Positions 45,259 to 62,237 of a stretch of 64,000 nt of DNA are shown one piece after another (the first letter of the stretch is position 1; every line of letters starts with the position of its first letter). Position numbers and translations under genes: made by a program. Below the pieces are notes generated by a model that saw only the letters and a list, made by a program, of their open reading frames with translations, did no database searches and was not told where the DNA came from. This DNA comes from Robiginitalea aestuariiviva (GTDB lineage Bacteria; Bacteroidota; Bacteroidia; Flavobacteriales; Flavobacteriaceae), in the NCBI RefSeq assembly GCF_029537735.1, contig NZ_JARPUQ010000003.1, forward strand, positions 183,015 to 247,014, read 5' to 3'.

Positions 45259-45349
45259 CAAAACTAGGGGCTTAAGGGTGTCTTCCCCGCGGAATTGGCC
45301 CGAGGGGGGCGGTTGTGTAGACGAATGGTAAGGGCCCTGCGGTGAATGA
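45259..45349 (-). promoter_or_regulatory. AlgR/LytTR-type promoter, copy 1 (receiver-glycosyltransferase gene)
   Basis: Reading the minus strand, CCATTCGTCTACA (45316-45328) is followed after exactly 49 bp by a perfect -7 box TAGTTTTG (45259-45266). A weaker half-site TCATTCACCGCAG lies 21 bp further upstream (45337-45349). The core matches the AlgR consensus CCGTTCGTC with one change. The site lies between divergent genes and may also influence the GT-C gene. Confidence 0.75.
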
Positions 45350-48300
45350 ATGGGGCAGAACGGGACAATATCCCTACTTTTAAGGTGTTATAAGTACGCT
45401 GTAAACCAACCTGTGGGAAAAACCAATAATTTACTGCTGCTGGCCCTGGGCATTGGCCTGGCCTTCCACGGTTCCGCCATCTTTTTTACCCTGGAGGACA
45501 CCTACGATGCGCTGGTACACCTGTTTTTTGCCGACCACTACCTGCAGCACTGGTTCGAAGCCTGGGAACCCCGCTGGTATACCGGCTTTACGGTTCAGGG
45601 GTACCCGCCCCTGGTCCACCAGGCCATGGCCTTTTTCGCCATGGCGGGCGGGCTAAAGTTCGGGCTCTACCTGATGGCCCTGTTGGCGGTGGTCCTCTTT
45701 ATTACGGGCATGTACCGCTTTTCCCTGATGCTGACCGGCAACCCGCGAATTGCCGGTACGGCGGCCCTGCTGGCCACCTGCTGTTCGGCCCTGGTGGAAA
45801 CCCTCCACCTGTTCGGGCAGCTGCCCAGCCTGGTAGGGTTGTCCCTCCTGTTGCACGCCCTGCCCGAGATTTACAGTTGGGTGCGCTACGGGAACCGCCG
45901 CTACCTGTTCCGGGCCCTGGCCCTGATCGGGGCCACGGTGTGTTCCCACCACGTTACCCCCATCTTCGGGATGGTCTTTTTTATTTTCCCCACCCTGGGG
46001 ATGGCCGTGATGGACCTGGCTGCCCTGGAGCGCGGGGGGGTACGCCAGGTAAACCTGTTGGCCTTCTGGCGGGTGCTGCGCCGCAGCCTGGGGCGCCTGA
46101 TGGCCTTTGGCCTGCCTACCCTGGTACTCATTGTGGTGCTGATCCTTCCGTACTGGCTTAATAGCAAGGCCAATCCGATTACCCAGGTCCCCATCCCGCA
46201 CGGCAGCCGGGACAACTACCTGGAAGTGTTTTCCTCCGGCCTGGTCTTTTTCCTGATTCCCTGGGGGGCCCTGCTGTTATTCCTGCCGTATATTTTCTAC
46301 CGCTATTTTAGCAAAAGGTATCTGTTTTACGGGCTATCCCTGGCCCTGCTTACCCTGCTGGGCACCGGGGGTACCACGCCCCTTCCCCGGATGCTGCTGG
46401 GGGAAAACGCCTTTAACATCCTGACCCTGGACCGCTTTACCCTTTGGGCCTCCATGATGAGCCTGCCCATGCTGGCCGAACTGGTATACCGCTATCTGGC
46501 CGGGGACCTGCGCGAAATCTGGCTGAGTCGCTATGGCAGCAATTATCACCGCCTGGTAGGCGGGGGCTTCTTTGGGGCCTACCTTTTTATGGCGGTCTTC
46601 ACCATGAGCCTGGGGTATTTCAGGCCCTCCCAGCCGGAACGCATCAATATGTTGCCTATCGTGAACTTCCTGAACCAGGACATGCACGACCACTGGCGCT
46701 ACCTCACCCTGGGCTTTGGCGACCAGATGGCCTGGCTCTCCGCCCAGACCAATGCCCTTTCCGTAGACGGCAACTACCACTCTGCCCGCCGCCTGCCCGA
46801 GCTTACCTCCCGGGCCGTGGAGCGCCTGGAAAACTCCAAATACCGGGGGCTGGAAGGCCTGGGCTCCCTGCAGCAGTTCCTGACCGTCCCGGAAAAATAC
46901 CACCTGAAGTTTATTTTTTCCAATGATAAGTTTTACGACCCCCTGCTCTATTTCTCCGGCTGGCGCCGCTTGCAGTTGCTGGAGAACGGCATTATGGTCT
47001 GGGAACGGGCCGGGGTAGCCCCCCTGCCCAACCTTTTGCCGCGCCCGGAACCTTCCCGCCTTCTCAACCTCTGGTGGGGGGTGGTGCCGCCCCTGAGTGC
47101 CCTGGTGGCCTACCTGGTTTGCATTCAGTGGGGGCTGACGGCCACCTGGCTCAGCCGAAGGGTTCCCAGTACCCACCCGGGGTATTCCGCCTGGTCCTAT
47201 TCCGGGATGCGGCGGCCCATGCTACTGCTTTCCCAGGCCTGGGGGTGGGTCGTTTTTGCTGCCTTGCTGTTGCTGGCCCTGATGCTGTACCGCAACAGCC
47301 TGCTGCAAGCCAGCCCGGAAAAGGCCGTGCAGGCCTATTACGACGCGGTGGATTTTAAGGAGTTTGAACAAGCACATGCCTACCTGGACCCGGAAGCCGG
47401 CCTGAGCCTGGACCAGTACCTGCTGGAGCTTTCCGTGGGGGATGGGCTGCTGAGTTCATATGCCAAGCTGGAATCGGTCCGCCCCCGGGTAGAAGGGCGG
47501 AAAGGGAACCAGGCCCGGGTACGTGCCCAGGTGCGGTATGTAACCCCCCTGCGGGTAGTGGAACAGGAGCGGGTGCACGACCTGGTGGAACGGGGTGGCC
47601 GGTGGTACCTGCTGCCCGAACCCCGGGATCCCGACCTGCCCCCGCAGCAGTGGGTAGAGCAGCGGGAAGTCTCTTATTTCAACCACGGCCGCAGGCGGGT
47701 TACCACCCAGCAAACCCACCATGAAGATGTCTTGCGCAGGCCCCGGACAGAAGTCTACCAGACCCGCGTCCTTGAGGCGGACAGCACCTACTCCGTAGTG
47801 GGATGGGTGCAGAACATCGATGCCTACCCGGCCGATGTGACCCTCACAGGCCGGCTTTTGGGAGCAGATGGTACGGAACTGGCCCGCTATAATGCCGGGC
47901 AGGTGCTCAAGCACCAGTTACTGCCGGGCGAGGGCAGTCCCTTTCGGGTGCGGTTCCAGGACATCGCCTGGCGGGTGGCTACGGCAAGCAAGCCCCTGAC
48001 CTATAACCCGGACCAGTTCCAGCCCCTGGACCTGGCAGAGATGCCGGGTGCATTCGAAGTGCTCTCGGAAGGCAACCAGGCCACCCAGGACCTCTATCAC
48101 CACCTGGCCCTGGAGGTGGATACCCTGACCCCCCAAACCCTATCCGGTACCGTGCATAACCTGGGGATACAGGAGGCCACCATTGTCCAGTTATTGATCT
48201 CCTATTACGATGCCCAGGGGCAGCCCCTGTGGGTAGACAGCCAATATCTGGAAGCCAGCGTACGCGTACAGCGGCGGCAGCCTTTTCGCCTGGAGCTGCC

Positions 48301-48463
48301 GGACCTCACCCACCTGCAGGCCTGGCCGCCAGACCAGGGCAACCTGACCCCGCCACCCCGGTTTCCCGAGGCCCTGCAGGCCCCGGAGCTGCTGCCGGTG
48401 CCCGGCAGGGGCTTTTCCTATATTCACGTAAAAGTAAACGCCTATGTGGGGGTGCCGCGCTAA
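45350..48463 (+). CDS. Large polytopic membrane protein, GT-C glycosyltransferase-like (PTPS-related family)
   Basis: A protein of 1037 residues. About 12 transmembrane helices (20-430), then one near 580-600 and one near 635-655. After helix 1 comes an acidic external loop TLEDTYDALVHLFFADHYLQHWFEAWEPRWYTGFTVQGYPPLVHQ-like (given here in part), with the Asp/Glu and WEPRWY features of GT-C enzymes that take sugars from polyprenyl-phosphate donors. The C-terminal third (about 660-1037) is extracytoplasmic, with an NTF2-like segment and beta-rich domains. Start uncertain: a GTG at 45413 would fit the -7-like TACTTTTA at 45375-45382. It overlaps the next gene by 20 bp. Confidence 0.72.
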   Translation: MGQNGTISLLLRCYKYAVNQPVGKTNNLLLLALGIGLAFHGSAIFFTLEDTYDALVHLFFADHYLQHWFEAWEPRWYTGFTVQGYPPLVHQAMAFFAMAGGLKFGLYLMALLAVVLFITGMYRFSLMLTGNPRIAGTAALLATCCSALVETLHLFGQLPSLVGLSLLLHALPEIYSWVRYGNRRYLFRALALIGATVCSHHVTPIFGMVFFIFPTLGMAVMDLAALERGGVRQVNLLAFWRVLRRSLGRLMAFGLPTLVLIVVLILPYWLNSKANPITQVPIPHGSRDNYLEVFSSGLVFFLIPWGALLLFLPYIFYRYFSKRYLFYGLSLALLTLLGTGGTTPLPRMLLGENAFNILTLDRFTLWASMMSLPMLAELVYRYLAGDLREIWLSRYGSNYHRLVGGGFFGAYLFMAVFTMSLGYFRPSQPERINMLPIVNFLNQDMHDHWRYLTLGFGDQMAWLSAQTNALSVDGNYHSARRLPELTSRAVERLENSKYRGLEGLGSLQQFLTVPEKYHLKFIFSNDKFYDPLLYFSGWRRLQLLENGIMVWERAGVAPLPNLLPRPEPSRLLNLWWGVVPPLSALVAYLVCIQWGLTATWLSRRVPSTHPGYSAWSYSGMRRPMLLLSQAWGWVVFAALLLLALMLYRNSLLQASPEKAVQAYYDAVDFKEFEQAHAYLDPEAGLSLDQYLLELSVGDGLLSSYAKLESVRPRVEGRKGNQARVRAQVRYVTPLRVVEQERVHDLVERGGRWYLLPEPRDPDLPPQQWVEQREVSYFNHGRRRVTTQQTHHEDVLRRPRTEVYQTRVLEADSTYSVVGWVQNIDAYPADVTLTGRLLGADGTELARYNAGQVLKHQLLPGEGSPFRVRFQDIAWRVATASKPLTYNPDQFQPLDLAEMPGAFEVLSEGNQATQDLYHHLALEVDTLTPQTLSGTVHNLGIQEATIVQLLISYYDAQGQPLWVDSQYLEASVRVQRRQPFRLELPDLTHLQAWPPDQGNLTPPPRFPEALQAPELLPVPGRGFSYIHVKVNAYVGVPR

Positions 48464-49709
48464 CATCCGCCTGGTAACTCTGCTCCCGATCCTGGCTATG
48501 GCCTGGGGTTGCCGGCAGGAGCCTGCCCTTCTCCCTGTGTTGGATGCTGAACTGCCCGGGGTTACCGTACAAGCACCGGATTCCCTTGGGGCCGGGGAAG
48601 CGCTTACCCTTTCCTTCAGGGCCTCCGCCGCCCTGGAAACGCCCTGGACGTTTGTATCCAATCCCTGGGGTGCCCTGGGCATTCCTTTGGAACGCAATGG
48701 GGAGGTATACCTGGCCCGGGTGCCCCTGGAAGTTACCCGGTTTGCCGGGCCCTTGCGGTGGCGGATGGGGCAGGGGAATACCCTGCTGGCCAGCGGGGTA
48801 GTGGAGATCCAACCTTCGGAAAAACGCCCGGAAGTGCTGGAGAGTTATGCCGGCCCATCCCATTTGCGTATCGGGCAGGACCCCTATGGGGATTTTATAG
48901 TCTTGCCCGTGGATGTCTGGGATAATCCCCTGCCGGATGGCACCGCACTTTCCCTGACGGTATCCGGGGATGGCTCCCGGGAAACTGCAACGGACCGCGC
49001 CAGCCACCTCATGGCTTATCGCCGTTTGGGCCCCGGGCAGCGCACTGGGATCCGCTACCTGGATGCCCGCCATGGGGATATCCGTTCCAAACGCCGCGAA
49101 GTTCGGGTAATGGCCGGTATCCCTGATAGCTTAACCCTGCTGGCTACCCGTCCGCATGATGTGGCAGACGGACACAGCCTGCTCCACCTGGCGGCTGGCC
49201 CGCTACGGGATGCATGGGGCAACCCGGTTCCGGATGGGACCTGGGTGGAATTCCGCCTGACCGATTCCCTGGGGAACCAAACCCGGACCCAGGGAGCCGC
49301 CCTCAGGGGGCTGGCCGAAATTGACGTGCCCTTCCCGAACCGGGCTACCCAATGGCGGATTACCGCTGCCGCGGCGGGCGGGGTCGTATCCCGGCCATTG
49401 GAACTGGCCTTTCTCCCGGCAGTGGTGGAGGTGCCCTTTGTGGTTGCTCCGAATGGACGCCTGGTGGAAATCGGGCCCGTCCCTTCCCTGGCAGGTGGCC
49501 TGGCGCCGGACGGCTTTCCCGTAAATGCCCGTCTGGAAAGTCCGGAGGGGGATACTGTACTTACCCGCCTGGCCTGGCTGCGGGACGGGCAGGCCAGTCT
49601 GCGCTTTCCAGCTACGGAGGTAGGGGCGGGCCGGTATCGGCTGCTGCTGCGCTGCGGGGACTGGCAGGGCGAAACCCGTTTAAACACCGATCGCGATGGG
49701 CTGGAATAA
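48444..49709 (+). CDS. Lipoprotein with tandem invasin/Ig-like (Big-type) domains
   Basis: A protein of 421 residues. The only usable start is the ATG overlapping the previous gene by 20 bp; it gives a lipoprotein signal NIRLVTLLPILAMAWGC (Cys23). The rest is beta-rich, with two Big1-like repeats recognisable by the pattern VDVWDNPLPDGTALSLTVSGDG and LRDAWGNPVPDGTWVEFRLTDSLG, and further sandwich domains on both sides. No enzyme motif is visible. It probably sits on a membrane surface as a scaffold or sugar-binding partner of the adjacent GT-C and GH5-like proteins. It also overlaps the following gene by 14 bp, so the three are translated together. Confidence 0.72.
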   Translation: MWGCRANIRLVTLLPILAMAWGCRQEPALLPVLDAELPGVTVQAPDSLGAGEALTLSFRASAALETPWTFVSNPWGALGIPLERNGEVYLARVPLEVTRFAGPLRWRMGQGNTLLASGVVEIQPSEKRPEVLESYAGPSHLRIGQDPYGDFIVLPVDVWDNPLPDGTALSLTVSGDGSRETATDRASHLMAYRRLGPGQRTGIRYLDARHGDIRSKRREVRVMAGIPDSLTLLATRPHDVADGHSLLHLAAGPLRDAWGNPVPDGTWVEFRLTDSLGNQTRTQGAALRGLAEIDVPFPNRATQWRITAAAAGGVVSRPLELAFLPAVVEVPFVVAPNGRLVEIGPVPSLAGGLAPDGFPVNARLESPEGDTVLTRLAWLRDGQASLRFPATEVGAGRYRLLLRCGDWQGETRLNTDRDGLE

Positions 49710-51225: not shown

Positions 51226-51258
51226 AGGGGAGCGATACCGGAGTATCGGCTCCCCTTC
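51224..51258. terminator. Strong hairpin between convergent genes, probable terminator
   Basis: A long stem, GAAGGGGAGC plus GATAC pairing with GTATC and GCTCCCCTTC around a CGGA loop (one bulged base), begins at the stop codon of the GH5-like gene. No clear T run follows, so the efficiency is uncertain, but it sits between convergent genes. Confidence 0.6.
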
Positions 51259-51279
51259 GAAGGAACTCAACCTATGATC

Positions 51280-52518
51280 TTAAATGTCTTCAGTCTCGTA
51301 AACGGGCTCTTTTAGCAGGGTTTGCCATGCAAAGCCTTCCTGCCGCCCGCGGATCAATGCCTTGAACAGGTCAATGTAGCGCTGTGTAATCACGGACATG
51401 GGCAGGGAACAGGCCGCCCGGTAATTTGCTTTCCCCAGGTGCATCCGGTAGGCGGGGAAGCTCAGGATATGGTCCAGGGCCTCAGCCAGGGATTTATGGT
51501 TTTCCGGTTCGAAGAATTCCCCTTTGTAGCCTTCTTCCCGTACCAGGATGCCCAGGTCTCCGATATCCGGCAGCACCACGGCTTTACCATAACTGCCGGC
51601 CTGGTGCAAAACCCCGGAGCTTCCGGTAGTGGAGGTGTAGGGGAAGGCCACTACGGCTGCCTCCGCAAACAGGGCGGGAACATCCGCTTCGGCAACGTAG
51701 CCGGTAAAGCGCAAACCGGGCACATGGGCGTATTTTTGGGCCACCCCTTCCAGGTATCCGGGGGTGTTGGGGCTGTCGGTGCCGGCAATGACAATTTCCA
51801 GGTCAAAATCGGTGCGGGCGCGAAGGATTTCCACGGCCTCAATCAGGGATTCTACCTTCTTGTAGGTGCCAAACTTGCCAAACGCCATGATTTGGCGGGG
51901 CCCTTCGGGCAGGCGGTAATCCGGTTCTTCCGGGATCTCAAAGGAACCGTGGGGCACCAGGGTAATGTTCCGGGCGCCGAATTTCTTTTCCAGGATGCCT
52001 ACGTATTTGCTGATGGTCAGGGCCAGGACATCGGATTGCAGGACAATGCGCGTAAGCCGGTTGCCGATTTGGCGATAGGCCCACTGTTTGATGGGGTTGG
52101 CGGTAAAGCCGGCATTTTCCAGGTCTACGGTTTCCATGATGTTGTGCAGCAGGGTCACGGTGGGGAAGCCGCGCCAGCGGGTAACCATGGGGGAAAACAG
52201 CCCCAGGGCAGCTGGGATGCGCTGGTCTCCGAATTTCAGGAATTGCAGGTTATACAGCACGGCATCCGGGCGATGCTGGCTCAGGGCCTTCTGGATGCGC
52301 CAGAGGTTGCTCCAGTCGTTAAAGGCCCAGCAGGGGACCACTTTTACCCGGCAACCCGGGTGGTCGGTTTCAATGTCTTTGGGGGCATCGCTCTGGTCGG
52401 TGAGCAGGATCAGCTCACTGATTTCAGGGTTATTGCGAAAGTGTTTCACCAGGTGGTATCCGTATTCAGACAAGGTAACCTTGCTGGAGGGATAAGCGGT
52501 GATGACAGCTAATTTCAT
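51280..52518 (-). CDS. GT4-family glycosyltransferase (GT-B fold)
   Basis: A protein of 412 residues. The start MKLAVITAYPSSKVTL is chosen because the predicted transcription start (about 52541) lies downstream of the longer frame's ATG at 52548. The GT-B fold shows in the N-terminal AYPSSKVTLSEYGYHLVKHF, the hinge region IMAFGKFGTYKKVESLIEAVEIL, and the nucleotide-sugar site FPYTSTTGSSGVLHQAGSYGKAVVLPD with a variant E-x7-E-like segment. It is cytoplasmic or membrane-associated and adds a sugar to a lipid-linked intermediate. It has its own AlgR-like promoter (copy 2) and ends at a convergent hairpin. Confidence 0.88.
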   Translation of the reverse strand: MKLAVITAYPSSKVTLSEYGYHLVKHFRNNPEISELILLTDQSDAPKDIETDHPGCRVKVVPCWAFNDWSNLWRIQKALSQHRPDAVLYNLQFLKFGDQRIPAALGLFSPMVTRWRGFPTVTLLHNIMETVDLENAGFTANPIKQWAYRQIGNRLTRIVLQSDVLALTISKYVGILEKKFGARNITLVPHGSFEIPEEPDYRLPEGPRQIMAFGKFGTYKKVESLIEAVEILRARTDFDLEIVIAGTDSPNTPGYLEGVAQKYAHVPGLRFTGYVAEADVPALFAEAAVVAFPYTSTTGSSGVLHQAGSYGKAVVLPDIGDLGILVREEGYKGEFFEPENHKSLAEALDHILSFPAYRMHLGKANYRAACSLPMSVITQRYIDLFKALIRGRQEGFAWQTLLKEPVYETEDI

Positions 52519-52545
52519 AGGTGGAGTGGGGTTTGAATTCGAAGT

Positions 52546-52636
52546 CAAAGATGCGGCAAATCCGGGGGGTAAATAGCCCGATATAGGCTGGCGGGCGGTA
52601 TGTGTAGATGAATGGGGAAGATGCGTCGGCTAAGGC
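52546..52636 (-). promoter_or_regulatory. AlgR/LytTR-type promoter, copy 2 (GT4 gene)
   Basis: On the minus strand CCATTCATCTACA (52603-52615; one base differs from the other copies) precedes the -7-like CATCTTTG (52546-52553) by exactly 49 bp. A half-site GCCTTAGCCGACG (52624-52636) lies 21 bp upstream of the core. Confidence 0.7.
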
Positions 52637-52666
52637 AAAACAGGGGCGAACGGGCTTTGGTTTCGG

Positions 52667-52696
52667 AAAAAAAAGAAGGCCGGATCAGATCCGGCC
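52667..52696 (-). terminator. Rho-independent terminator of the first flippase gene
   Basis: The stem GGCCGGA / TCCGGCC (52678-52684 with 52690-52696) has a 5-base loop. On the minus strand it is followed by TTC and eight T (52674-52667). It lies 30 bp after the stop of the flippase gene at 52727 and separates that gene from the GT4 promoter. Confidence 0.85.
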
Positions 52697-52726
52697 CCCG
52701 TAACGAACACGAAAAAAGCACTGGAG

Positions 52727-53962
52727 TTATTCACTCCGGTTAAATAGCATTAAGTAGGCGATTTGGAAGATTAGCAGGGCGGCCATGCAGATGATCTGGA
52801 TGTTTACGATTTCTTCCATGGTGTCGCAGATGGTAGACAGGAAGATGAGTTGTAAAAACCCATAATTGCAGGACAGCACCACAGGGATATAGTTGCGGAT
52901 AGCCACAAAGTGGTATACGATGATGTTGCTCAGGGAGAACAGGGACACCCCCAGGGCGTATTTCCAGAGCAGGGGGCTGATGTCCAGGTAGGCCCCGCCC
53001 AGCATAAAATTCATGATGTGCTGTGGAAACAGGCTGGCCCCGACAATCAGGACGCTGAAGACTCCGGCGGCAATCCCGAGCTGCCGGTAGAGCAGGTCCA
53101 GGCGCTCGTGCATGGTAACGGTTTGCCGTAGGTTGCGCAGCAGCATATAGGCCACAAACCCCCATCCGATAAAATAGATGGTCTGGCTCACCATTTTCAT
53201 GGCCATAAACTGGGAAGCGTCCAGGTTGGTGGCAAAGTGCTTTACAAAGAACACATCGCCCTGGTTGATAAAGTACTGGGTGAGTTGGGCAAAGAGCGAA
53301 AGGGCCAAAAAGCGGTTCAGTTCCTTTACCTCGGACAGGTTGGGGAAGGCTATGGCAGAGAATGGGTCCTTGCGCGTACGGATGGGCACCAGGCCCAGCA
53401 CAAAGGAAAGGACCATGCCCAGGGTCAGGATCAGGATGGGATCCCAGGGGGCCACCAGCAGAAGCACCAGGGTGAGCAGCAGTCGGGACCACAGCTCGGT
53501 GCCATAGGACATGGACAGGCCAAACAGGTCATTGCCTGCAAATTGCCTGCCGCGGGAGACGCACATAAAAAGGTATACCGGAAGCCCGAAGCCGAGGATC
53601 ACAAAGGTATAGGGGCTGGCGGCATTGAAAAAGTTCTGCAGGGAACCGGCAAAGAAGATCATGGCAAACCCCAGGACCAACCCGGCCAGGATGGCGCGGC
53701 GCCCTAGCAGCTGGATCATATGCTCCCGGCGCCCTTCTTCCAGTTGGGGCAATACCTGCGCCATGGTCAGTTGGAAGGTAAGTCCCAGGAAGGCAATCCC
53801 CATAACCAGGGTAAGGACCAGGGCCGCATCGGCAAAAAGGTCGGCCCCCAGCAGGCGGCCCATCACCAGGTTAAATACATAAACACCAAAGTGGACAAAG
53901 AGGATGCTGCCCAGGAAAACCTGTTCGGGAGCAAAGGACTTGGAGAGGGTGCGTGTGATCAT
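52727..53962 (-). CDS. Polysaccharide flippase-like membrane protein (Wzx/MATE-MVF type), paralogue 1
   Basis: A protein of 411 residues with about 12 transmembrane helices. The N-terminus (VFLGSILFVHFGVYVFNLVMGRLLG, ADAALVLTLVMGIAFLGLTFQLTMAQVL) shows the Wzx/PST pattern with the conserved GR-LG loop after helix 1. It should move a lipid-linked glycan across the inner membrane. It is a clear paralogue of the next gene upstream (54201-55439), sharing the same helix-1/2 pattern and length. It has its own promoter (copy 3) and its own terminator, so it is monocistronic. A soluble periplasmic partner was not seen. Confidence 0.85.
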   Translation of the reverse strand: MITRTLSKSFAPEQVFLGSILFVHFGVYVFNLVMGRLLGADLFADAALVLTLVMGIAFLGLTFQLTMAQVLPQLEEGRREHMIQLLGRRAILAGLVLGFAMIFFAGSLQNFFNAASPYTFVILGFGLPVYLFMCVSRGRQFAGNDLFGLSMSYGTELWSRLLLTLVLLLVAPWDPILILTLGMVLSFVLGLVPIRTRKDPFSAIAFPNLSEVKELNRFLALSLFAQLTQYFINQGDVFFVKHFATNLDASQFMAMKMVSQTIYFIGWGFVAYMLLRNLRQTVTMHERLDLLYRQLGIAAGVFSVLIVGASLFPQHIMNFMLGGAYLDISPLLWKYALGVSLFSLSNIIVYHFVAIRNYIPVVLSCNYGFLQLIFLSTICDTMEEIVNIQIICMAALLIFQIAYLMLFNRSE

Positions 53963-54002
53963 GGTTCAAATGTATTCTCGGGTTACTTTTTCATTTACCC
54001 TC

Positions 54003-54072
54003 CAAAACTCTTTAATTAAAGGAAGCCGGTCCGGCCGGCCGTGTTCAAATGCAACTTGGTGTAGACGAATGG
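54003..54072 (-). promoter_or_regulatory. AlgR/LytTR-type promoter, copy 3 (first flippase gene)
   Basis: On the minus strand CCATTCGTCTACA (54060-54072) precedes the -7-like GAGTTTTG (54003-54010) by exactly 49 bp. The second half-site 20-21 bp upstream is poorly conserved here. Copies 2 and 3 share GCATCT 9 bp before the core. Confidence 0.7.
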
Positions 54073-54175: not shown

Positions 54176-54200
54176 CATATTTTTGTGGGAAAGTACAGGA

Positions 54201-55439
54201 TCAGGCCCGGGGGGCGCCCCGTAACAGGAAGTAGGCCAACTGTATAATCAGCAGGGTCCCCATACAGCCCACCTGCAGCCAGACTACGGCATCCAGGGTA
54301 GGGTGATAGGCGGCTACCGCCGTAATTTGCAAGGCCCCAAGGACGGCAGCGATCCACATGGGGGTATACTGGTCCAAAGACAGGAAGTAATAGGTAAACA
54401 GGTTGGCCAGGGCAAAACAAGCCGTAGCCAGGGCATAGGGGCCCAGCAGGCCGGCCAGTTCCAGGTAGGCTTCTCCGAACAGCAGGCGAATGGTGGCCTC
54501 GGGGAAGAGGAAGCAACCCAAAACGGCCGCCCCGGAAAACAACCCTACCATCAGGCCGTGGCGCATCAGCAGCGGGCGGGTATCCACCCCGTTTTTCCGC
54601 TGGCGGATCACCTCCGGCAACAGCACCATCACAAACATCCAGGTTACAAAGTACACTACCCGCCCCACCAGGGCCAGGGAGGCGTATTGCCCGGCCGTAT
54701 GCGGGTCGAAGAAATGGGTAACCAGCACCATATCCCCGTTGTTGATCAGGATCTGGGAACACTCGTAGAGGGCGGTCATCCCTATAAAGCGGTACACCAG
54801 GGTTCGGTCTGCGGGCAGCGGAGCCTCCACAGCCCGTGCCTTATCCTGTACCACACCGCGGGGTGCCACCCACCCGAAAAGAAAGGAGGCGGCAATGCCC
54901 ACCCCAACCGCCAGAGCAGAAGGCAGGAGCCACAGCAACAGGGCGGTAAGCAGCAGGCGGGCCCACATTTCGGCCTGGTAGCTTACGGACAGCCCGATAA
55001 AATCCTGGGCACCCTGCTGCCGGCCCCGGGAAAAGCTCATCCCAAAATACAGGGGGATACCCAGGCCAAATGCGATAAAGGGCAGCCCATTTTCAAAATG
55101 GAACCAGCTTGCCAGGTAGGGGTGGGTCAGCACCATGGCCAGGCCAATGGCGACCCCGGCCCAAAGGGCGCGTTTGCGGAACCAGCCGTGAAAGCGATCC
55201 CAGCGCGAGCCATCCCATTCGCTGCGGTATTTGGCGGCGGTGAGCTGTACGGTCATCCCGATAAAGGCCACCACCAGTAATAAGGTAATCAGCAGGGCGG
55301 CTCGGGCAAAGGCCTCGGGCCCCAGCCACCGGCCCAGGATCAGGTTGTAGAGGTAGTTCCCCCCGTTAACCAACAGGGCGCTGAGCATAAAGATGCGCTG
55401 GGGGCTGAGTTGCCGCGCCAGCAATACGGTTGAGCGCAT
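54201..55439 (-). CDS. Polysaccharide flippase-like membrane protein (Wzx/MATE-MVF type), paralogue 2
   Basis: A protein of 412 residues. The start MRSTVLLARQLSPQRIF is chosen because the -7 box at 55485-55492 puts the transcript start near 55480, downstream of the ATG of the longer frame (55487). About 12 helices; the first segment FMLSALLVNGGNYLYNLILGRWLGPEAFARAALL closely parallels that of paralogue 1 (VFNLVMGRLLGADLFADAAL). Two such genes side by side, each with the same regulatory element, indicate an old tandem duplication with retained co-regulation. The pair may act as a heterodimer or serve two glycans. Confidence 0.85.
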   Translation of the reverse strand: MRSTVLLARQLSPQRIFMLSALLVNGGNYLYNLILGRWLGPEAFARAALLITLLLVVAFIGMTVQLTAAKYRSEWDGSRWDRFHGWFRKRALWAGVAIGLAMVLTHPYLASWFHFENGLPFIAFGLGIPLYFGMSFSRGRQQGAQDFIGLSVSYQAEMWARLLLTALLLWLLPSALAVGVGIAASFLFGWVAPRGVVQDKARAVEAPLPADRTLVYRFIGMTALYECSQILINNGDMVLVTHFFDPHTAGQYASLALVGRVVYFVTWMFVMVLLPEVIRQRKNGVDTRPLLMRHGLMVGLFSGAAVLGCFLFPEATIRLLFGEAYLELAGLLGPYALATACFALANLFTYYFLSLDQYTPMWIAAVLGALQITAVAAYHPTLDAVVWLQVGCMGTLLIIQLAYFLLRGAPRA

Positions 55440-55484
55440 GAATCCGGTTTTATCCGGAGCACCTCCATGCCCCGGAATTCCCAA

Positions 55485-55554
55485 CAAAATTGGGCGCTTT
55501 AGCCCTTGTTCAGGGCTGGCGTTCGCCGGATGCCCTATTACTGTAGACGAACGG
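55485..55554 (-). promoter_or_regulatory. AlgR/LytTR-type promoter, copy 4 (second flippase gene)
   Basis: On the minus strand CCGTTCGTCTACA (55542-55554), containing an exact AlgR consensus CCGTTCGTC, precedes the -7-like CAATTTTG (55485-55492) by exactly 49 bp. A weak half-site lies 21 bp upstream (55563-55575). The divergent TPR/barrel gene starts 104 bp away, with its own -7-like TACTTTTA at 55591-55598. Confidence 0.72.
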
Positions 55555-55658
55555 GAGGTAACTGACTTCCAAAAAGGAAGGGGGTGGAAGTACTTTTATA
55601 CCAGGGATTTAGAGGCACAAAAAACGCCCGTAATCCCTGGAATGCAACCCTATGACCT

Positions 55659-57719
55659 ATGCTTGTAAAACGAATCTTTTACGCCCTGCTGTTGGGCCTG
55701 CCCCTGGCAGGACTACAGGCCCAGCCTTCCATGGAAGCGGGCTTTGCCCTGCTGGAAGCGGGAAACTACCAAAGCGCCGCTGCCTTTTTTGACGCCTACC
55801 TGCAGGCCGATCCGGCCAACCGCACCGCCCGTTTATGCCTGGGCCGGGCCGTGGGCCTGGACGGGGCCCCGGGGCGTGCCCGTGGGATTTTCTCTGAATT
55901 GCTGGAGCAGTACCCGGGCGACCTGGAACTGGAACTGAACTATGCCGAAGCCCTGCTCTGGGACGGGCGGTATGCCGAGGCCAAACCCTATTACCAGGAA
56001 CTGATGACCCGGTACCCGAAGCAATTCGGGGTCCTGCTCGGGCTGGCCAATACGCTTTCCAACCTGAAAGAATATCCCCGGGCGGATTCCCTGGTTACCC
56101 TGGCCCTGGGTCTTCAACCGGGAAATCCGGAGGCGCTCACCTCCCAAAAATACATCCGGATGGGATGGGCGTACCAGGCCATGCAGGGGCAACAATACGC
56201 CAGGGCGGAAGCCCTGCTGGATACCCTGCGGCTGGCACGACCCGGGGATCGGGACGTACACCACCTGCGCGCGGATTATTTCCTGCAAACCAAGGCGTAT
56301 GGGCAGGCACAGGCGTGTTACACCACCCTGGAGGCCCTGGGTGATACCCTGCTAGCCTGGCGGGGCCGCGCCCTGGCCTGGCACCTGCAAGGCCGTCCGG
56401 CTAAAGCCCTGGAATGGGCCCGCAAGGGATGGGAGCAGGTACAGGAAAGGCCTGCAGATACCCAGTATTGGCCGGCCTGGGAACGCTATGTGCAGGCCCT
56501 GATCTGGAACCGGCGTTATGGCAAGGCTCGTATCGAATTGCGGAGGCAAAAGGCCGTTGCCCCCAGCGGTACCCATGCCGCCCTTTCGGCAACCCTGGAA
56601 ATGTACACCGGGCAGTTTCGGAAAAGCCTGAACGCCTATGATCGCCTGCTGCATGCAGACAGCAGCTCATTTGACGGCTTGCTGGGACGGGCCAATGCCC
56701 TCTTTGCCGCGGACCGGCCCGTGGAGGCCCTGGCGGCAGGCTGGCGGGCTTCACGTATCTTCACCGGCCAGCAGGATGTACAGCAATTTGTGGAGAAAGT
56801 CCGCAATGGGTTTTCCCCTGAGGTATCCAATACCTCGGGCGTGAGTTTTGACAACGGGAAAAACCAGGCCTATTTCAGCACCTTCCAGGTGCGCCTGCCG
56901 CTTTCCGGTCGCTGGGAAGCCGGGTTGCAGTTCGGGCAGCGCCTGACGGAGAACCGCGTGGCGGGTATCCGCGCAGAGACCCAATCGGCCCAGGCCTCCA
57001 TACGCCTGAAGATGATGCCCCATACCGTCTTGCAGGCCTCCCTGGGCGGGTTTAAGACGTTGCTTTCCGAAGGCGGGGTGTTCCGGCCGGAAGGCCGACT
57101 GGGGTTGCAGTTCCAACCCTTTCCACGACAGAACGCCGAGGTGTTCTACCAACGCAAGGTGCAGGATTTCAACGCACAACTCCTGGCGCAAAACCTCCTG
57201 ATGGAACAAATGGGGGGCAACTACCACCTGAAAACTACCTTTGGTCTGGGCTTTTTTGGCCAGTGGATCCACCAGCGCCAAAGTGACAAAAATACCGGGG
57301 ATGCGGTCTTCGCTTCCCTCTATGCGGAACCGCTCACCAAACCCGTGCTCAAACTGGGGGTAAACGGGCAGTACCTGGGTTTTGCCCAACAACGGCCCGA
57401 ACAGTATTTCAGCCCTGGGCGCTATGTAGCCTGGGACGGTTTTGCGGAATACCGCCCGGACCTGGGAGAGAAAACCCGCCTGATGGCCATGGCGGCCCTG
57501 GGGGCACAGCGCATAGAGGCCCTGCCTGCACAGGGTACCTTTCGGGCCCGCCTGGAGTTCACCCGCCTCTGGGGCAAACGTTGGGAAACCGCTCTGTACG
57601 GGCAGTACAGCAGCCAGGCCTCCAGCAATGCAGCGGGGTTTGAATTCGGGGAAGCGGGATTTCGAATCCGTTACCGGGTCGCTAAGCTGTTATTCAACCC
57701 GGAGAAGGGATTAAAGTAA
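55659..57719 (+). CDS. TPR / outer-membrane beta-barrel protein, probable polysaccharide export or assembly component
   Basis: A protein of 686 residues with a signal peptide (MLVKRIFYALLLGLPLAGLQAQ). TPR repeats fill about 25-400 (FALLEAGNYQSAAAFFDAYLQADP, YAEALLWDGRYAEAKPYYQELMTRYP and others). From about 415 to the end, amphipathic beta strands form a barrel (AYFSTFQVRLPLSGRWEAGLQFGQRL ... FRIRYRVAKLLF). This TPR-plus-barrel build is that of YaiO and of the PgaA/BcsC exporters, so an outer-membrane export or docking role for the polysaccharide made by the neighbouring genes is likely. The gene converges with the LytTR gene, overlapping it by 9 bp. Confidence 0.82.
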   Translation: MLVKRIFYALLLGLPLAGLQAQPSMEAGFALLEAGNYQSAAAFFDAYLQADPANRTARLCLGRAVGLDGAPGRARGIFSELLEQYPGDLELELNYAEALLWDGRYAEAKPYYQELMTRYPKQFGVLLGLANTLSNLKEYPRADSLVTLALGLQPGNPEALTSQKYIRMGWAYQAMQGQQYARAEALLDTLRLARPGDRDVHHLRADYFLQTKAYGQAQACYTTLEALGDTLLAWRGRALAWHLQGRPAKALEWARKGWEQVQERPADTQYWPAWERYVQALIWNRRYGKARIELRRQKAVAPSGTHAALSATLEMYTGQFRKSLNAYDRLLHADSSSFDGLLGRANALFAADRPVEALAAGWRASRIFTGQQDVQQFVEKVRNGFSPEVSNTSGVSFDNGKNQAYFSTFQVRLPLSGRWEAGLQFGQRLTENRVAGIRAETQSAQASIRLKMMPHTVLQASLGGFKTLLSEGGVFRPEGRLGLQFQPFPRQNAEVFYQRKVQDFNAQLLAQNLLMEQMGGNYHLKTTFGLGFFGQWIHQRQSDKNTGDAVFASLYAEPLTKPVLKLGVNGQYLGFAQQRPEQYFSPGRYVAWDGFAEYRPDLGEKTRLMAMAALGAQRIEALPAQGTFRARLEFTRLWGKRWETALYGQYSSQASSNAAGFEFGEAGFRIRYRVAKLLFNPEKGLK

Positions 57720-58433
57720 ATTCAGGCGGCGCATCAGTTCCGGCCGGTTGGAACGGCTGATGGGGATCACGTGCTTACCGATCAGCACGCTGTTGTCCTC
57801 GATGTCGATGATGCGCTTCAGGTTGATGATATAAGAGCGGTGAATCTGCAAAAAGATGCTCTCCGGCAGTTTGCCCTTGATGCTTTTCAGGGTATTGTGC
57901 ACCCGGATGATCTCCTTCTCCGTCTTGACCTGGATGTAGTCGCCTTCGGCCTCAATTACCAGAATGTCCTCGAACAGGATTTTGATCAGGCGGCGGTCGA
58001 TATTCACGAACAATTCATTACCGTGTTCCCCGGATTTGGGGGCAGGAGCATTGGATGAGGCCTCCCCGGCCGGCTTCTGCTTGAGTTGGGCCCGGACCTT
58101 GTCCACCGCCTTGGCAAAGCGTTCCGGCAGCACCGGCTTTACCAGGTAATCTACTACGGAGTTGTACTCATAAGATTCCAGGGCAAACTGGGCATCGGAG
58201 GTGGTCAGCACTACCTTTGGGGGGTGGCGTACCGTCTCTATAAAGTCAAAACCTGTAAATCCCGGCATGTGGATATCCAGAAAGGCCGCATCAACCTCGT
58301 CCTTGTTCAGGAACTTGATGGCGTCTATGGCATTTTCAAATTCCGCAATCACATCCAGGTCCGGGATGCCCTCGCAGAGTTGGCGGATAATGGCACGGGC
58401 CGCGGCTTCATCGTCGATGATAATACAGGTCAT
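57711..58433 (-). CDS. LytTR-family response regulator (AlgR/LytR type)
   Basis: A protein of 240 residues. A receiver domain (1-118) has Asp7/Asp8, phosphoacceptor Asp53 in AAFLDIHMPG, Thr in VVLTTSD and Lys99 in YLVKPV. A charged linker (about 120-140) leads to a LytTR DNA-binding domain (142-240: ILFEDILVIEAEGDYIQVKTE, IRVHNTLKSIKGKLPESIFLQIHRSYIINLKRI, VLIGKHVIPISRSNRPELMRRLN). LytTR proteins bind tandem 9-13 bp direct repeats; AlgR prefers CCGTTCGTC. Five matching elements lie in front of genes in this locus, including its own operon, so this is their most likely regulator. It is the last gene of the sensory operon, 3 bp after the Hpt gene. Confidence 0.95.
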   Translation of the reverse strand: MTCIIIDDEAAARAIIRQLCEGIPDLDVIAEFENAIDAIKFLNKDEVDAAFLDIHMPGFTGFDFIETVRHPPKVVLTTSDAQFALESYEYNSVVDYLVKPVLPERFAKAVDKVRAQLKQKPAGEASSNAPAPKSGEHGNELFVNIDRRLIKILFEDILVIEAEGDYIQVKTEKEIIRVHNTLKSIKGKLPESIFLQIHRSYIINLKRIIDIEDNSVLIGKHVIPISRSNRPELMRRLNLL

Positions 58434-58436
58434 AGT

Positions 58437-58754
58437 CTAGAGTTCGTTTAAGAACTGCGCCATGCAGTCCAGTAATTCCCCAAATTCGGCAGGGTAGGCA
58501 TCCCGGCCTTCCCGAAGGTGTTCTTCGTAGTCTTCGGCCAGGGCATATCCCTTTTTCAGGCCTAAAATACTGATTTTGTGCTTTAGCTTATGCACCATGA
58601 GCCGGGCTTCTTCGAAATCCCCTTCCTGCAGGGCTTTTTCGTAAGCCTGCCGCTCTCCGGGGAACTCGGATTTCAGGATGCCCGTAAAGCGTTCTCGGAA
58701 TTCCAGGTTGTCCCCGGCCAGGGCGTTCAGGTAATCCATATTGGGGGTTTCCAT
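58437..58754 (-). CDS. Hpt-domain phosphotransfer protein
   Basis: A protein of 105 residues, a stand-alone histidine phosphotransfer domain. The motif VHKLKHKISILGL places the phosphorylated His at residue 55 with Lys58 at the usual +3 position, on the second helix of a four-helix bundle. It is located between the kinase (5-bp gap) and the LytTR gene (3-bp gap). The kinase lacks its own receiver, so this protein may take phosphate from one receiver (for example the single-domain regulator at 61720) and pass it to another, such as the LytTR protein or the receiver-glycosyltransferase fusion. The routing is an inference. A Met at 58739 is an alternative start. Confidence 0.9.
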   Translation of the reverse strand: METPNMDYLNALAGDNLEFRERFTGILKSEFPGERQAYEKALQEGDFEEARLMVHKLKHKISILGLKKGYALAEDYEEHLREGRDAYPAEFGELLDCMAQFLNEL

Positions 58755-58759
58755 ATTGC

Positions 58760-61126
58760 TTATTGCTTCCTTATAGTAAAAGTAAAGGTGGTGCCCTGCC
58801 CCGGAGTACTGGCTACCCGTACTTCGCCCCCGTGGAGTTCGGTGATTTTCTTAACGATGGACAAACCAATACCTGTGCCTTTTCGCTTCCCTGAAATGGA
58901 CTGGAACATCTGGAAGATCTTCTGGTGGTATTCCGGGGGGATACCCACCCCGTTGTCCTCCACGTAGAATTCCCAGAAGTCCCCAATATCGCGGCAGCCC
59001 ACGGTTACCAGGCCTTCCGGATTTTCAATGTGGGTTACGGCATTGCTGAGCAGGTTTTGGAACAACTGGTGCATCTGGGCCGGGATGGCCCGGATCACCG
59101 GAAGCTCATCCATAATCACAATGCGCACATGGTCTGGAATAAAAATAATTTCACGGATATTGGAAACCACCTGGTTCAGGTCTACTTCTTCCTGGGCTGC
59201 AGCATCCTGCTGAATACTGGAATAGCGCAGGATATCGTCAATCAGGTGGTCCATCCCCTCAATCTTGTCCTGCATCATCTGCAGTTGTAATTGGCCTTCG
59301 GGCCCCAGCTTGTCCCGGTAGTCTTCCTGCATCCAGCTCACCAGGGCATTTACGGAACGCAGGGGGGATTTCAGGTCGTGGGATACGATATGGGCGTACT
59401 CGCTCAACTCCCGGTTACTGGCCTGGAGTTCTTTCAGCAGGAGTTCCTTTTGGGCTTCGAGTTCCTTTTGCATGGTCACATCCAGGTGGATGCCGATGGT
59501 CCCGGCCAGCCGGCCTTTTTCGTCGTAACGGGGCGCCCCGCTCACCAGCCAGTATTTGCGTTCCCCCTTTTTGGTGGCCACTTCCACCTCGTAGGAATCC
59601 GAATATCCTTTCTTGCGCCGCTCGAGCATTTCAGGGATGATTTCCTTGTTGCTTACCCGAAGGATTTCCGTGGCAGTCTGGCCCAGCAGCTCGGTTTCGC
59701 CATAGCCGCTCATCTGGCTGAAGCGCTTGTTGACCATCTGGATGGTATCGTCCAGGTCTACCTCGATCATCCCCAGGTTCATATTGGCAATAATGCTGCC
59801 GTATTTGTTGCGTTCCTGTTCTATGGTTTGCTTGTAAAGGCGGGGCAGGGTAACATCTGAATAGGTCCAGAGGTGGCCCTGGTAATGCTCGTCCGAATAA
59901 ATGGGAATATAATCCCGTTCCAGGATACGGCCGTCCTTCAGGAGCAGCTCCTCCCCATGCACCAGTTCCCGGGCCTTCAGGATTTCATCGATGCGATCCA
60001 GGAAACCGTTTTCATCTTCAAAAAGCCCCATACTCTGGCGTGCGGCTGTATCGCAATCGTACCCTTTGAGGGACTCCGGGGGTGCGGTGATGCCAAAAAT
60101 GTCGCAGAATTGCTGGTTGGTCAGGGCAATTTTGCGATCCTGGTCCTCCAGCAACACGGCCGTGTTCAGGTTTTCAATCAGGTTGGAGAGCCGGCTCTCG
60201 GAGGCGTGTATTTTCAATTCTGCCTCCCGTTGGCGGGTGATGTCTTCCAATATCTTTACCCGGTATACCTCTTTACCATTTTTATCCCTAACCGCACTTA
60301 CGGTGGCTTTGGCGAGGATGTTCCGCCCATCGGCACGGACATACCGTTTAACCAGGTGGTAGGTATCCCGTGTTCCTCTGGCCATTTCCCTTTCCAGCCG
60401 GGCGCCAAGGTCCGGATCTTCCGGTGTGGACAGGGAAGCGAGTTTTTTCCCGATCACCTCCTGGTGCGGATACCCGGTGAGTACCTCAAAGGCATGGTTG
60501 GCTTTGATGATTTGGCCGTCCACAGTAAGGACAATCCCCAGGGGGGAGTGGTCCACAATGATGTCGAGTTGCTGTTTCTGTTCCCGGATCAGGTCGGCTG
60601 CTTCCCGTTCCCGGGTAATGTCGCGGATAATACCCTGGGCAGCAACCGGCTTGTTGTCCCGGTCGTAAATGACACTGCCATTGATCTGCACAAAGGGTTC
60701 GTGCCCGGGGGCCACCTGTATGCGGGCTACGTAATTTTTCAGGAAACCGTCCCGGAAGAGCTGCCTGAGGGAATCCCGGGTGTATTGCTCGTAATCCGGG
60801 TGGACCAGCTCTGTAAGGTTCTTCGGGTTTTTCGCATGGTCGAACCCCAGGAATTCCTTGGCGGCGCTGTTCATGCGGATCACATTCCCATAGGTGTCCA
60901 TCACCACATAGGGATCCACAATATTCACAAAGATTCCCTGCAGCTCGGCGGTTTTCTCACTGAGTAGCCCCTCCAGTTGCTCGTTGGCTTCCTTCAGTTG
61001 GCGGGCCGTGTCGAACAGCTCCCTGGATTTGACCTCCAGGATGCTTTCCGCCTGCCGCCGGGCTTTTTTTTGGCGCTCCAACGCCCGCTCCAGGATTTCA
61101 ATCCGGTTTTCAGCCATTGCGGACAA
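58760..61126 (-). CDS. Soluble multi-PAS sensor histidine kinase, H-NOX partner
   Basis: A protein of 788 residues with no transmembrane segment, hence cytoplasmic. An N-terminal coiled coil (about 5-62) is followed by four PAS domains (about 65-175, 190-300, 315-430, 445-560; DITREREA, DITRQREA, SDVTLPR and LDVTMQKE mark their C-terminal caps). The kinase core has an H box HIVSHDLKSPLRS with phospho-acceptor His583, an N box (LFQNLLSNAVTHIENP), and G boxes (DNGVGIPPE, GTGIGLSIVKKI). It has no receiver domain. It overlaps the H-NOX gene by up to 17 bp, the standard genetic sign of an H-NOX-regulated kinase. The ATG at 61117 (MAEN) is an alternative start. Confidence 0.93.
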   Translation of the reverse strand: MSAMAENRIEILERALERQKKARRQAESILEVKSRELFDTARQLKEANEQLEGLLSEKTAELQGIFVNIVDPYVVMDTYGNVIRMNSAAKEFLGFDHAKNPKNLTELVHPDYEQYTRDSLRQLFRDGFLKNYVARIQVAPGHEPFVQINGSVIYDRDNKPVAAQGIIRDITREREAADLIREQKQQLDIIVDHSPLGIVLTVDGQIIKANHAFEVLTGYPHQEVIGKKLASLSTPEDPDLGARLEREMARGTRDTYHLVKRYVRADGRNILAKATVSAVRDKNGKEVYRVKILEDITRQREAELKIHASESRLSNLIENLNTAVLLEDQDRKIALTNQQFCDIFGITAPPESLKGYDCDTAARQSMGLFEDENGFLDRIDEILKARELVHGEELLLKDGRILERDYIPIYSDEHYQGHLWTYSDVTLPRLYKQTIEQERNKYGSIIANMNLGMIEVDLDDTIQMVNKRFSQMSGYGETELLGQTATEILRVSNKEIIPEMLERRKKGYSDSYEVEVATKKGERKYWLVSGAPRYDEKGRLAGTIGIHLDVTMQKELEAQKELLLKELQASNRELSEYAHIVSHDLKSPLRSVNALVSWMQEDYRDKLGPEGQLQLQMMQDKIEGMDHLIDDILRYSSIQQDAAAQEEVDLNQVVSNIREIIFIPDHVRIVIMDELPVIRAIPAQMHQLFQNLLSNAVTHIENPEGLVTVGCRDIGDFWEFYVEDNGVGIPPEYHQKIFQMFQSISGKRKGTGIGLSIVKKITELHGGEVRVASTPGQGTTFTFTIRKQ

Positions 61127-61652
61127 TCTGAAATTCTACTTTGGTACCGTTAGGTTCAAGTAACTTGTAGGTTACCTGGGCATGCTGGTCAAAGTGCTGG
61201 AAGCAACTTTCCATCAGCCCGTGAGCAATAGCGTACAGGCCCCGTTCGGACTGGTAGACCAGGGTCAGATGGTCCGGATTCCGGTCCAGAATGGTGAAGG
61301 TGGGCAACTGGGCCTCCGGGTAGAGTTTGCGCACCTGCACATGAATGTGGTCTTCAATGCCGTAAATCAGTTCCAAGGGGTCCTTATAACTGGCAATGAC
61401 CTCGGGGTGGGCCTTTCCCAGGCCTCCAAACAAGTAGTGCCCGAAAGCGTACAACAGGGATCCAGGGTCCATTTCAACGGTCTGGCTTAAGGCGGTTAGC
61501 AAAGACACCATTTCGTTAAAATCGTAGGTGCCCACGGCGGTATATACCCCGCCGGATTCCAGGGAGGTGTTTTCCAGGATCTGGTCTGCCACTTCCAGGC
61601 CGAATTTTTCTTCTACCATCTCCAGAAACTCGGTAAAAATGATCCCTTTCAT
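61110..61652 (-). CDS. H-NOX (HNOB) heme nitric-oxide/oxygen sensor
   Basis: A protein of 180 residues, the stand-alone bacterial H-NOX length. Starting MKGIIFTEFLEMVEEKFG, it carries the proximal haem ligand His104 in HIHVQVRKLYP with the conserved Pro112, and the propionate-binding YxSxR motif as Tyr133-Ser135-Arg137 (YQSER). All haem-binding hallmarks are therefore intact. H-NOX proteins bind NO (and in some cases O2) and inhibit or activate a co-encoded kinase. The overlap with the kinase gene makes that partner clear. It follows the single-domain response regulator by 67 bp. Whether it binds oxygen depends on distal-pocket residues that cannot be judged here. Confidence 0.96.
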   Translation of the reverse strand: MKGIIFTEFLEMVEEKFGLEVADQILENTSLESGGVYTAVGTYDFNEMVSLLTALSQTVEMDPGSLLYAFGHYLFGGLGKAHPEVIASYKDPLELIYGIEDHIHVQVRKLYPEAQLPTFTILDRNPDHLTLVYQSERGLYAIAHGLMESCFQHFDQHAQVTYKLLEPNGTKVEFQIVRNG

Positions 61653-61719
61653 ATTTGGGTGGGTGTTGAGTTCTTACATTAAACATTTCCGGAACCTCAG
61701 GGATTCCGCTTCGGATGTC

Positions 61720-62121
61720 TCAGGATTTAACCAGTTCGTTTACCTCCCAGTACTTCAGGAATCGCAGGATCATCTCTTCGTAATCCTCGTATTTCAGGGG
61801 TTTGCTGAGATAACCGGCGATGCCCACCTTATAACATTCCAGCAGGTCCGATCGGTTTTGGGAGGTGGTCAGGATTACCGTGGGCAGGTACCGCAATTTT
61901 TCATCTGCTTTCAGGATGCGTAAAAATTCGATGCCGTTCATGCGCGGCATGTTCAGGTCTAGCAGGATGATGTCCGGCAAGGGTTTGCCGGATTGCAGAT
62001 ATGCCAGGGCCTCTTCCCCGTTTTTGGCCTCGGTAATCTGGTGTTTGGTTTCGGATTTGGCGATGGTTCGGTGCAATTTCATGCTTTCGATCGCATCGTC
62101 CTCAATGAATAGTACGTTCAT
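61720..62121 (-). CDS. Single-domain response regulator (Rcp1/CheY-like)
   Basis: A protein of 133 residues. The start MNVLFIEDDAIESMKL is the receiver's first strand; the predicted transcript start near 62143 excludes the longer frame. Acidic residues Glu7-Asp9 form the usual pocket, the phosphoacceptor is Asp55 in ILLDLNMPRMNG, Thr85 lies in VILTTSQ and Lys107 in YLSKPL. There is no output domain. It heads the operon RR - H-NOX - kinase - Hpt - LytTR and has the AlgR-like element (copy 5) upstream. It may be the phosphorelay intermediate between kinase and Hpt, or a phosphate sink. Confidence 0.93.
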   Translation of the reverse strand: MNVLFIEDDAIESMKLHRTIAKSETKHQITEAKNGEEALAYLQSGKPLPDIILLDLNMPRMNGIEFLRILKADEKLRYLPTVILTTSQNRSDLLECYKVGIAGYLSKPLKYEDYEEMILRFLKYWEVNELVKS

Positions 62122-62147
62122 AACTATAATTTCCCCATTATAAGTTC

Positions 62148-62237
62148 CTAAAGTAGGGCAATCCTCACGCTTACATCCATAACGCCGTCCGATGGGCAAC
62201 TAGTGTAGACGAATGGAACTTTTGTGTCGGCCAATGG
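62148..62237 (-). promoter_or_regulatory. AlgR/LytTR-type promoter, copy 5 (sensory operon)
   Basis: On the minus strand CCATTCGTCTACA (62204-62216) precedes the -7-like TACTTTAG (62148-62155) by 48 bp. The upstream half-site CCATTGGCCGACA (62225-62237) is the best conserved of the set, exactly 21 bp (two helix turns) away. This would make the LytTR operon autoregulated. Confidence 0.75.

Follow-up and report, generated by a model that had tools for sequence, protein, structure and literature searches.

Response regulators of the LytTR type bind direct repeats about two helical turns apart, placed upstream of the promoter in the case of activators (PMC4227749, PMC11347149; comparisons here and below follow passages of the cited papers). 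We analysed a 64,000-nucleotide stretch of DNA from Robiginitalea aestuariiviva (Flavobacteriaceae), referred to as the window, in which a 13-base element with the pattern CCRTTCRTCTACA stands before five genes or operons for surface polysaccharide and signalling. It is very probable, judging from sequence comparison, that these elements serve the LytTR regulator encoded at 57711-58433 as its operators, within a gas-tuned phosphorelay for surface polysaccharide.

At the promoter, the proposed system is AgrA-like. AgrA, at P2 and P3 of Staphylococcus aureus, is likewise a LytTR response regulator with direct repeats just upstream of the promoter; it is an activator, its repeats are centred near -60 and its promoter has non-optimal -35/-10 spacing, but it differs from the window in its sensor, its site sequence and its Firmicutes promoter (PMC4227749). 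The gas-sensing LytTR regulators RcoM and CoxC resemble the window in their direct-repeat operators, with three repeats about two helical turns apart, and, in having a gas input, the relay proposed here, but they are one-component carbon monoxide sensors, and CoxC is a repressor overlapping the -35 box (PMC11347149). AlgR of Pseudomonas aeruginosa is a LytTR protein over exopolysaccharide genes, as proposed here, but its sites lie at varied, often far positions (PMC4064291). The initial annotation had called the element AlgR-like, which refers to a resemblance of the 9-base core: the AlgR core CCGTTCGTC is exact at one of the five window sites, and CCATTCGTC or CCATTCATC, with one or two changes, stand at the others (PMC4064291). 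Since the core is exact only once and AlgR sites are not necessarily direct repeats 12 base pairs (bp) apart, we did not adopt AlgR membership, and regard the sites as resembling the AlgR core without the AlgR arrangement. The best NCBIfam matches of the LytTR protein were to BtsR and LytR models, both below cut-off.

On the sensory side, the system parallels the H-NOX to Syp route of Vibrio fischeri with another output domain. There, the haem-NO-binding (H-NOX) protein tunes a kinase that acts through the Hpt domain of SypF on transcription of the syp exopolysaccharide genes; as a difference from the scheme proposed here, H-NOX inhibits, and does so in dependence on nitric oxide (NO) (PMC8738867). 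In addition, NosP is a FIST-family second NO sensor encoded beside a histidine kinase, an arrangement that recurs in R. aestuariiviva, and FIST genes have been noted near hnox genes (PMC8738867). Unlike in the passages of that review, a single operon that ends in Hpt and LytTR carries both H-NOX and FIST genes in 22 of 60 loci from relatives; haem binding by these FIST proteins is a prediction.

The element, its promoters and its arrays

We recovered the pattern exactly at all five positions given by the initial annotation, always on the minus strand and always followed by a minus-strand gene. An octamer resembling TAnnTTTG, here called the -7 box, lies 49, 49, 49, 49 and 48 bp further on, as had been described, and the genes served are those named before: a receiver-glycosyltransferase fusion (receiver-GT2), a GT4 glycosyltransferase, two flippase-like proteins and the sensory operon. 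One box fits TAnnTTTG perfectly and four at 5/6 fixed letters. The sites were also scored with a sequence-only profile built from 80 sites of relatives with the window left out (window-free profile). The components of the five promoters are as follows.

45316..45328, minus strand: strong half-site CCATTCGTCTACA upstream of receiver-GT2 (pattern match; window-free profile, E 0.0044 on the window)
45259..45266, minus strand: -7 box TAGTTTTG, 49 bp past the receiver-GT2 half-site
52603..52615, minus strand: strong half-site CCATTCATCTACA upstream of GT4 (pattern match and window-free profile)
52582..52594, minus strand: weaker half-site CCGCCAGCCTATA, 21 bp downstream of the GT4 half-site
52546..52553, minus strand: -7 box CATCTTTG, 49 bp past the GT4 half-site
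54060..54072, minus strand: strong half-site CCATTCGTCTACA upstream of flippase 1, second repeat poor (pattern match and window-free profile)
54003..54010, minus strand: -7 box GAGTTTTG, 49 bp past the flippase 1 half-site
55542..55554, minus strand: strong half-site CCGTTCGTCTACA upstream of flippase 2 (pattern match and window-free profile)
55521..55533, minus strand: weaker half-site GCATCCGGCGAAC, 21 bp downstream of the flippase 2 half-site
55485..55492, minus strand: -7 box CAATTTTG, 49 bp past the flippase 2 half-site
62225..62237, minus strand: half-site CCATTGGCCGACA, 21 bp upstream in the operon-head array
62204..62216, minus strand: strong half-site CCATTCGTCTACA upstream of the sensory operon (pattern match and window-free profile)
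62183..62195, minus strand: half-site CCATCGGACGGCG, 21 bp downstream in the operon-head array
62148..62155, minus strand: -7 box TACTTTAG, 48 bp past the sensory-operon half-site

The constant spacing is unlikely to be a product of chance, as the initial annotation had argued. When the leaders were shuffled 5000 times, at most 3/5 sites fell into one offset window and all five never did, and the leaders of the five promoters are otherwise dissimilar to one another. With up to two mismatches allowed, the window holds eight matches, compared with a shuffle mean of 2.53 and a shuffle maximum of 6. A genome-wide search, which had been proposed as a check, gave six exact matches in 3,221,834 bases (4 contigs), five of them inside the window, and none for a reversed-pattern control; one-mismatch matches numbered 13 against 6 for the control. 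We examined the sixth exact match (C2:37092) as a possible target but discarded it: since it lies antisense within a 521-residue reading frame and has no promoter-profile match at E <=0.5, we read it as chance. The window-free profile found the five known sites in the window and nothing else at E <=5. On the whole genome it returned 11 hits, with the window sites as five of the best eight; the other three were C1:643173 (E 0.005), C1:993296 (0.056) and C1:120506 (0.11).

The 13-mer is the strongest half-site of a direct-repeat array with a 21-bp period, in keeping with the spacing of about two helical turns in LytTR operators. Around the sites of relatives, half-sites recur with peaks at exactly +21 (z 6.7) and, more weakly, -21 (z 3.8), and three of the window sites, those at 62204, 55542 and 52603, show a clear second repeat. 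In a first set of loci from relatives, a box at 5/6 or better was found 48-50 bp away for 80/108 sites, with a minor peak at 69-71 bp that fits a strong half-site one repeat further out. The flavobacterial sigma-A box has the consensus TAnnTTTG at -12 to -5 (PMC9723704). Setting the box there places the strong half-site at -74 to -62 and the proximal half-site at -53 to -41. A TTG 17-23 bp before the box was found at 4/79 sites, against 7.9 in shuffles, so that no enrichment of a -33 TTG was seen. We also looked for bidirectional operators and rejected them, having found no divergent opposite-strand box at a fixed distance.

Conservation beside the LytTR orthologue

We sampled 149 genomes of the family, R. 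aestuariiviva included, of which 129 matched the LytTR protein at E <=1e-30. The 60 of the 148 other genomes with a best LytTR match of 49-69% identity were taken to carry the orthologue. The first locus set comprised up to 20 kilobases (kb) per orthologue, some stretches reaching contig ends and some lying off-centre to include known matches. Together with the window, these loci held 53 exact sites on the LytTR strand and 0 on the opposite strand, and 61 one-mismatch sites against 2; a site at up to one mismatch was present in 48/60 relatives' loci. A second set of 80 named loci, reduced to 68 by removal of 12 that overlapped the first, gave 79 exact sites against 0 and 71 one-mismatch sites against 2 by strand, with a site in 62/68 loci. 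In this set a box stood at 48-50 bp for 102/140 sites (94 of them at 49), compared with 0-12 in 19 control windows. Element and spacing are thus conserved in dozens of genera, almost all sites being on one strand and clustered at the orthologue, which strongly supports the earlier proposal of a LytTR regulon for polysaccharide genes.

According to a simple reading-frame picker, 111/113 sites in the first set and the window are intergenic. The next gene encodes the operon-head receiver in 34 cases, GT4 in 18, a flippase in nine, receiver-GT2 in six (relatives down to 24% identity), Hpt in one and another protein in 35, and no gene was in reach in ten; in these counts tandem pairs count twice and the window's five sites are included. 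The 35 other genes include 13 for related proteins of 815-876 residues, of which the one scanned has Por_Secre_tail, 11 for related proteins of 80-123 residues, of which the three scanned match STAS models (two above cut-off), and a UDP-sugar dehydrogenase gene. Across all 149 genomes there are 124 exact matches, 93 in the 61 orthologue-bearing genomes and 31 in the other 88. Of the 93, 58 (in 35 genomes) lie no more than 50 kb from the orthologue, 57 of them on its strand. The far-off matches in these genomes are mostly background, and the signal is the clustering at the orthologue, not the match total.

Ten genomes of the genus Robiginitalea were also searched. The orthologue (47-69%) occurs in R. 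aestuariiviva and three others, R. myxolifaciens (G152), G153 and G156. The first two of these three have their sites at the locus, and G156 on a separate contig, next to a receiver fragment and DHDPS. In R. myxolifaciens a good box lies at 48-50 bp for 3/4 sites. The six genomes without the orthologue hold two stray exact matches, neither with a box, and where such genomes retain a LytTR paralogue (35-37%), no site cluster comes with it. Within the genus, then, sites follow the presence of the orthologue, in agreement with the earlier suggestion that the local LytTR protein would be the regulator. In G153 (L203:4107-12897) DHDPS stands on one side of the sensory operon and AhpC/TonB-receptor genes on the other. 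These genes also flank the locus in the window, and in G153 they enclose no polysaccharide genes, as if the polysaccharide block had been acquired or lost in one piece.

The strongest profile hits in 14 relatives are mostly at the locus, and many of them are training sites. Of 18 further profile places, some overlap the edge of a picked frame, but none was flagged as lying inside one. Full-length receiver-GT2 relatives (58-59%) follow three of these places, and a weaker relative (35%) follows one. In two genomes (L171 in G075, L172 in G056), a hit far from the locus faces a convergent gene; the two genes encode similar membrane proteins, and the frames downstream of both hits are all short. 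We also observed an orphan promoter from C1:643187 onward (L122:6188-6447), with CCATTCGTCGACA and a perfect TATGTTTG box at 49 bp. There is no long reading frame between it and the next, convergent gene. About 170 nucleotides on lies a strong hairpin that has a T run and that a terminator scan did not list. DNA matches to this stretch elsewhere in the 149 genomes are only 20-35 bases long, in five genomes, and Rfam gave only tRNAs above threshold, outside the stretch. It is possible that this promoter serves a small RNA or a short peptide. On the same fetched stretch, two neighbouring 96-residue frames (L122:7459-7749 and L122:7886-8176) are identical over their first 60 residues and have tRNA genes downstream. 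Another profile hit that has no box, C1:1446473, is followed by a gene for a BLUF (blue-light) protein (L125:4461-4877).

Sensory operon, FIST-kinase pair and proposed mechanism

The genes behind the five sites, including the sensory operon that runs on the minus strand from 62121 to 57711 with LytTR last, are listed below.

43974..45206, minus strand: receiver domain fused to a family-2 glycosyltransferase (GT2), 410 residues (Pfam)
51280..52518, minus strand: GT4 glycosyltransferase, from the first ATG (Pfam)
52727..53962, minus strand: flippase-like membrane protein 1, without a Pfam match
54201..55439, minus strand: flippase-like protein 2, Polysacc_synt below the Pfam cut-off, from the first ATG
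61720..62121, minus strand: stand-alone receiver protein, operon head, from the first ATG (Pfam)
61110..61652, minus strand: H-NOX (haem-NO-binding) protein (Pfam HNOB, E 5e-37; nearest solved relative 6bde, E 2.8e-53)
58760..61126, minus strand: PAS-domain histidine kinase (Pfam)
58437..58754, minus strand: Hpt phosphotransfer protein (Pfam)
57711..58433, minus strand: LytTR response regulator, proposed array binder (Pfam LytTR and Response_reg above cut-off)

Three starts were set at the first ATG (52518, 55439 and 62121), the listed frames at 51280, 54201 and 61720 opening too far upstream. The two flippase-like proteins share matches in relatives and so are similar to each other. On the plus strand, the neighbours are a GH5-like and a TPR protein (Pfam). 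In the LytTR protein, receiver Asp53 is invariant in 21/21 aligned sequences. The HNOB-domain protein adjoins the histidine kinase, the layout of H-NOX signalling operons. Among the 61 loci (60 from relatives and the window), receiver, kinase and Hpt matches are each present in 58, and H-NOX in 46; a PAS or PAS-GAF kinase is retained in four examined loci that lack H-NOX. In genome G011 (L048:2951-10440), the LytTR orthologue lies downstream of nitrite-reductase-type, Rieske and NarX-like kinase genes, which replace the H-NOX set.

A second candidate sensor was found outside the window. At C1:993296, a triple 21-bp repeat with a TTTTTTTG box (5/6) at 49 bp stands directly before a FIST_N/FIST_C gene followed by a histidine kinase gene, a NosP-type layout. 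In a search of 59 genomes at E 1e-15, the FIST protein matched in four, R. aestuariiviva and three others, and in those three it lies within 3 kb before the LytTR orthologue. A FIST relative occurs in 25/60 fetched loci in a similar place, 2.5 kb before LytTR, and each of the 25 genes is followed by a reading frame of 348-382 residues; the three FIST genes scanned all have FIST_N and FIST_C. H-NOX was also seen in 22 of these 25 loci, and the fetched stretches of the other three end 2.5-4.4 kb before LytTR. FIST proteins are not all NO sensors. Nevertheless, the array marks a pair of sensor genes whose counterparts lie inside the operon in many relatives, and we regard this as the strongest argument for a nitric oxide input.

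We propose that the LytTR protein binds arrays with a 21-bp period, in which the strongest half-site, CCRTTCRTCTACA, would occupy about -74 to -62 relative to the expected start and the weaker one about -53 to -41, before a sigma-A promoter with a TAnnTTTG box. Given the lack of an enriched TTG at -33, RNA polymerase is probably recruited by phosphorylated LytTR instead. Receiver, H-NOX, PAS kinase, Hpt and LytTR would form a phosphorelay tuned by gas binding to H-NOX, into which the FIST-kinase pair may feed a NosP-type sensor input. Since an array stands at the operon's own head, the sensory operon is probably autoregulated. The output would be a surface-polysaccharide machine made up of receiver-GT2, GT4 and the two flippase-like proteins. 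SypG, which fills the role of output regulator in V. fischeri, belongs to the NtrC type and not to LytTR. The receiver-GT2 protein (43974-45206) is an enzyme that could be switched directly by the phosphorelay, and in other genera its relatives of 50-60% identity are preceded by the same array.

Alternative explanations and significance

Several observations weigh against this interpretation. Four of the five window boxes have one mismatch to TAnnTTTG, and the arrays at 54060 and 45316 have a poor second repeat. A site at up to one mismatch is missing from 12/60 loci of the first set, and 6/68 loci of the second have no site. Within Robiginitalea, there is no good box at 48-50 bp for the operon-head site of R. 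myxolifaciens, for either of the G153 sites or for the G156 site. The 35 exact matches far from the orthologue amount to 0.57 per genome, compared with 0.35 in genomes that have no orthologue. H-NOX was not found in 15/61 loci, some of the fetched stretches being incomplete. In the genome-wide profile scan the FIST hit reached only E 0.056, and C1:120506 and C1:1446473, which rank similarly, show no box at >=5/6 in the examined stretch.

The identity of the binding protein can be questioned in two ways. R. aestuariiviva has seven LytTR genes, and LytTR proteins share a type of site, so the arrays might be bound by a paralogue and the nearby gene be merely linked; we consider this improbable, given that the sites cluster across genera at the orthologues of this gene, and that the paralogue kept in the genus where the orthologue is absent comes without a cluster. 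A regulator of another family that is always linked to the operon would be compatible with sites adjoining other genes of the locus as well. However, 21-bp direct repeats with a CCRTTCRTC core fit LytTR sites, and a Pfam scan of 18 window proteins (40423-63810) matched no DNA-binding protein besides LytTR, which makes such a regulator very improbable. That the sites are remnants of duplications or repeats, or due to chance, is scarcely credible: the apparent relatedness of the flippase genes means that two of the promoters could be copies, but the leaders are otherwise unlike, the shuffles never brought the five sites together and the element is conserved across genera.

The signal can also be questioned. 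H-NOX may be incidental, with the phosphorelay answering another signal and the gas sensors only modulating it, or LytTR may act as a repressor. The loci that keep a PAS or PAS-GAF kinase without H-NOX, together with the NarX-like kinase and nitrite reductase genes upstream in G011, speak for such a scheme. We nevertheless think it rather unlikely, because H-NOX is present in most loci and a second type of sensor, of the FIST family, in 25/60, and the position of the sites upstream of the box fits an activator. We keep to the reading of the arrays as predicted operators of the LytTR protein at 57711-58433 in a gas-tuned phosphorelay.

Among the papers listed in searches of the open-access PMC literature, none names the element or joins H-NOX with LytTR in Bacteroidota, and among the matches listed for motif fragments no title concerned flavobacterial regulation. 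The analysis offers an operator and a promoter geometry, with a list of targets, for a LytTR regulator of a phylum for which no described LytTR site was found in that literature. It also ties LytTR to H-NOX and FIST sensors, which have been described, in the passages drawn on, mainly in Proteobacteria. More tentatively, we suggest that a widespread phosphorelay of the Flavobacteriaceae may exist in which H-NOX and NosP-type FIST proteins, unrelated NO sensors each with its own kinase, converge through Hpt on one LytTR protein that drives surface polysaccharide genes and itself, with the receiver-glycosyltransferase letting the same signal act on an enzyme directly. Since the element predicts targets in many marine genera and picked out the FIST-kinase pair, switching of flavobacterial slime, attachment and biofilm by nitric oxide becomes testable.

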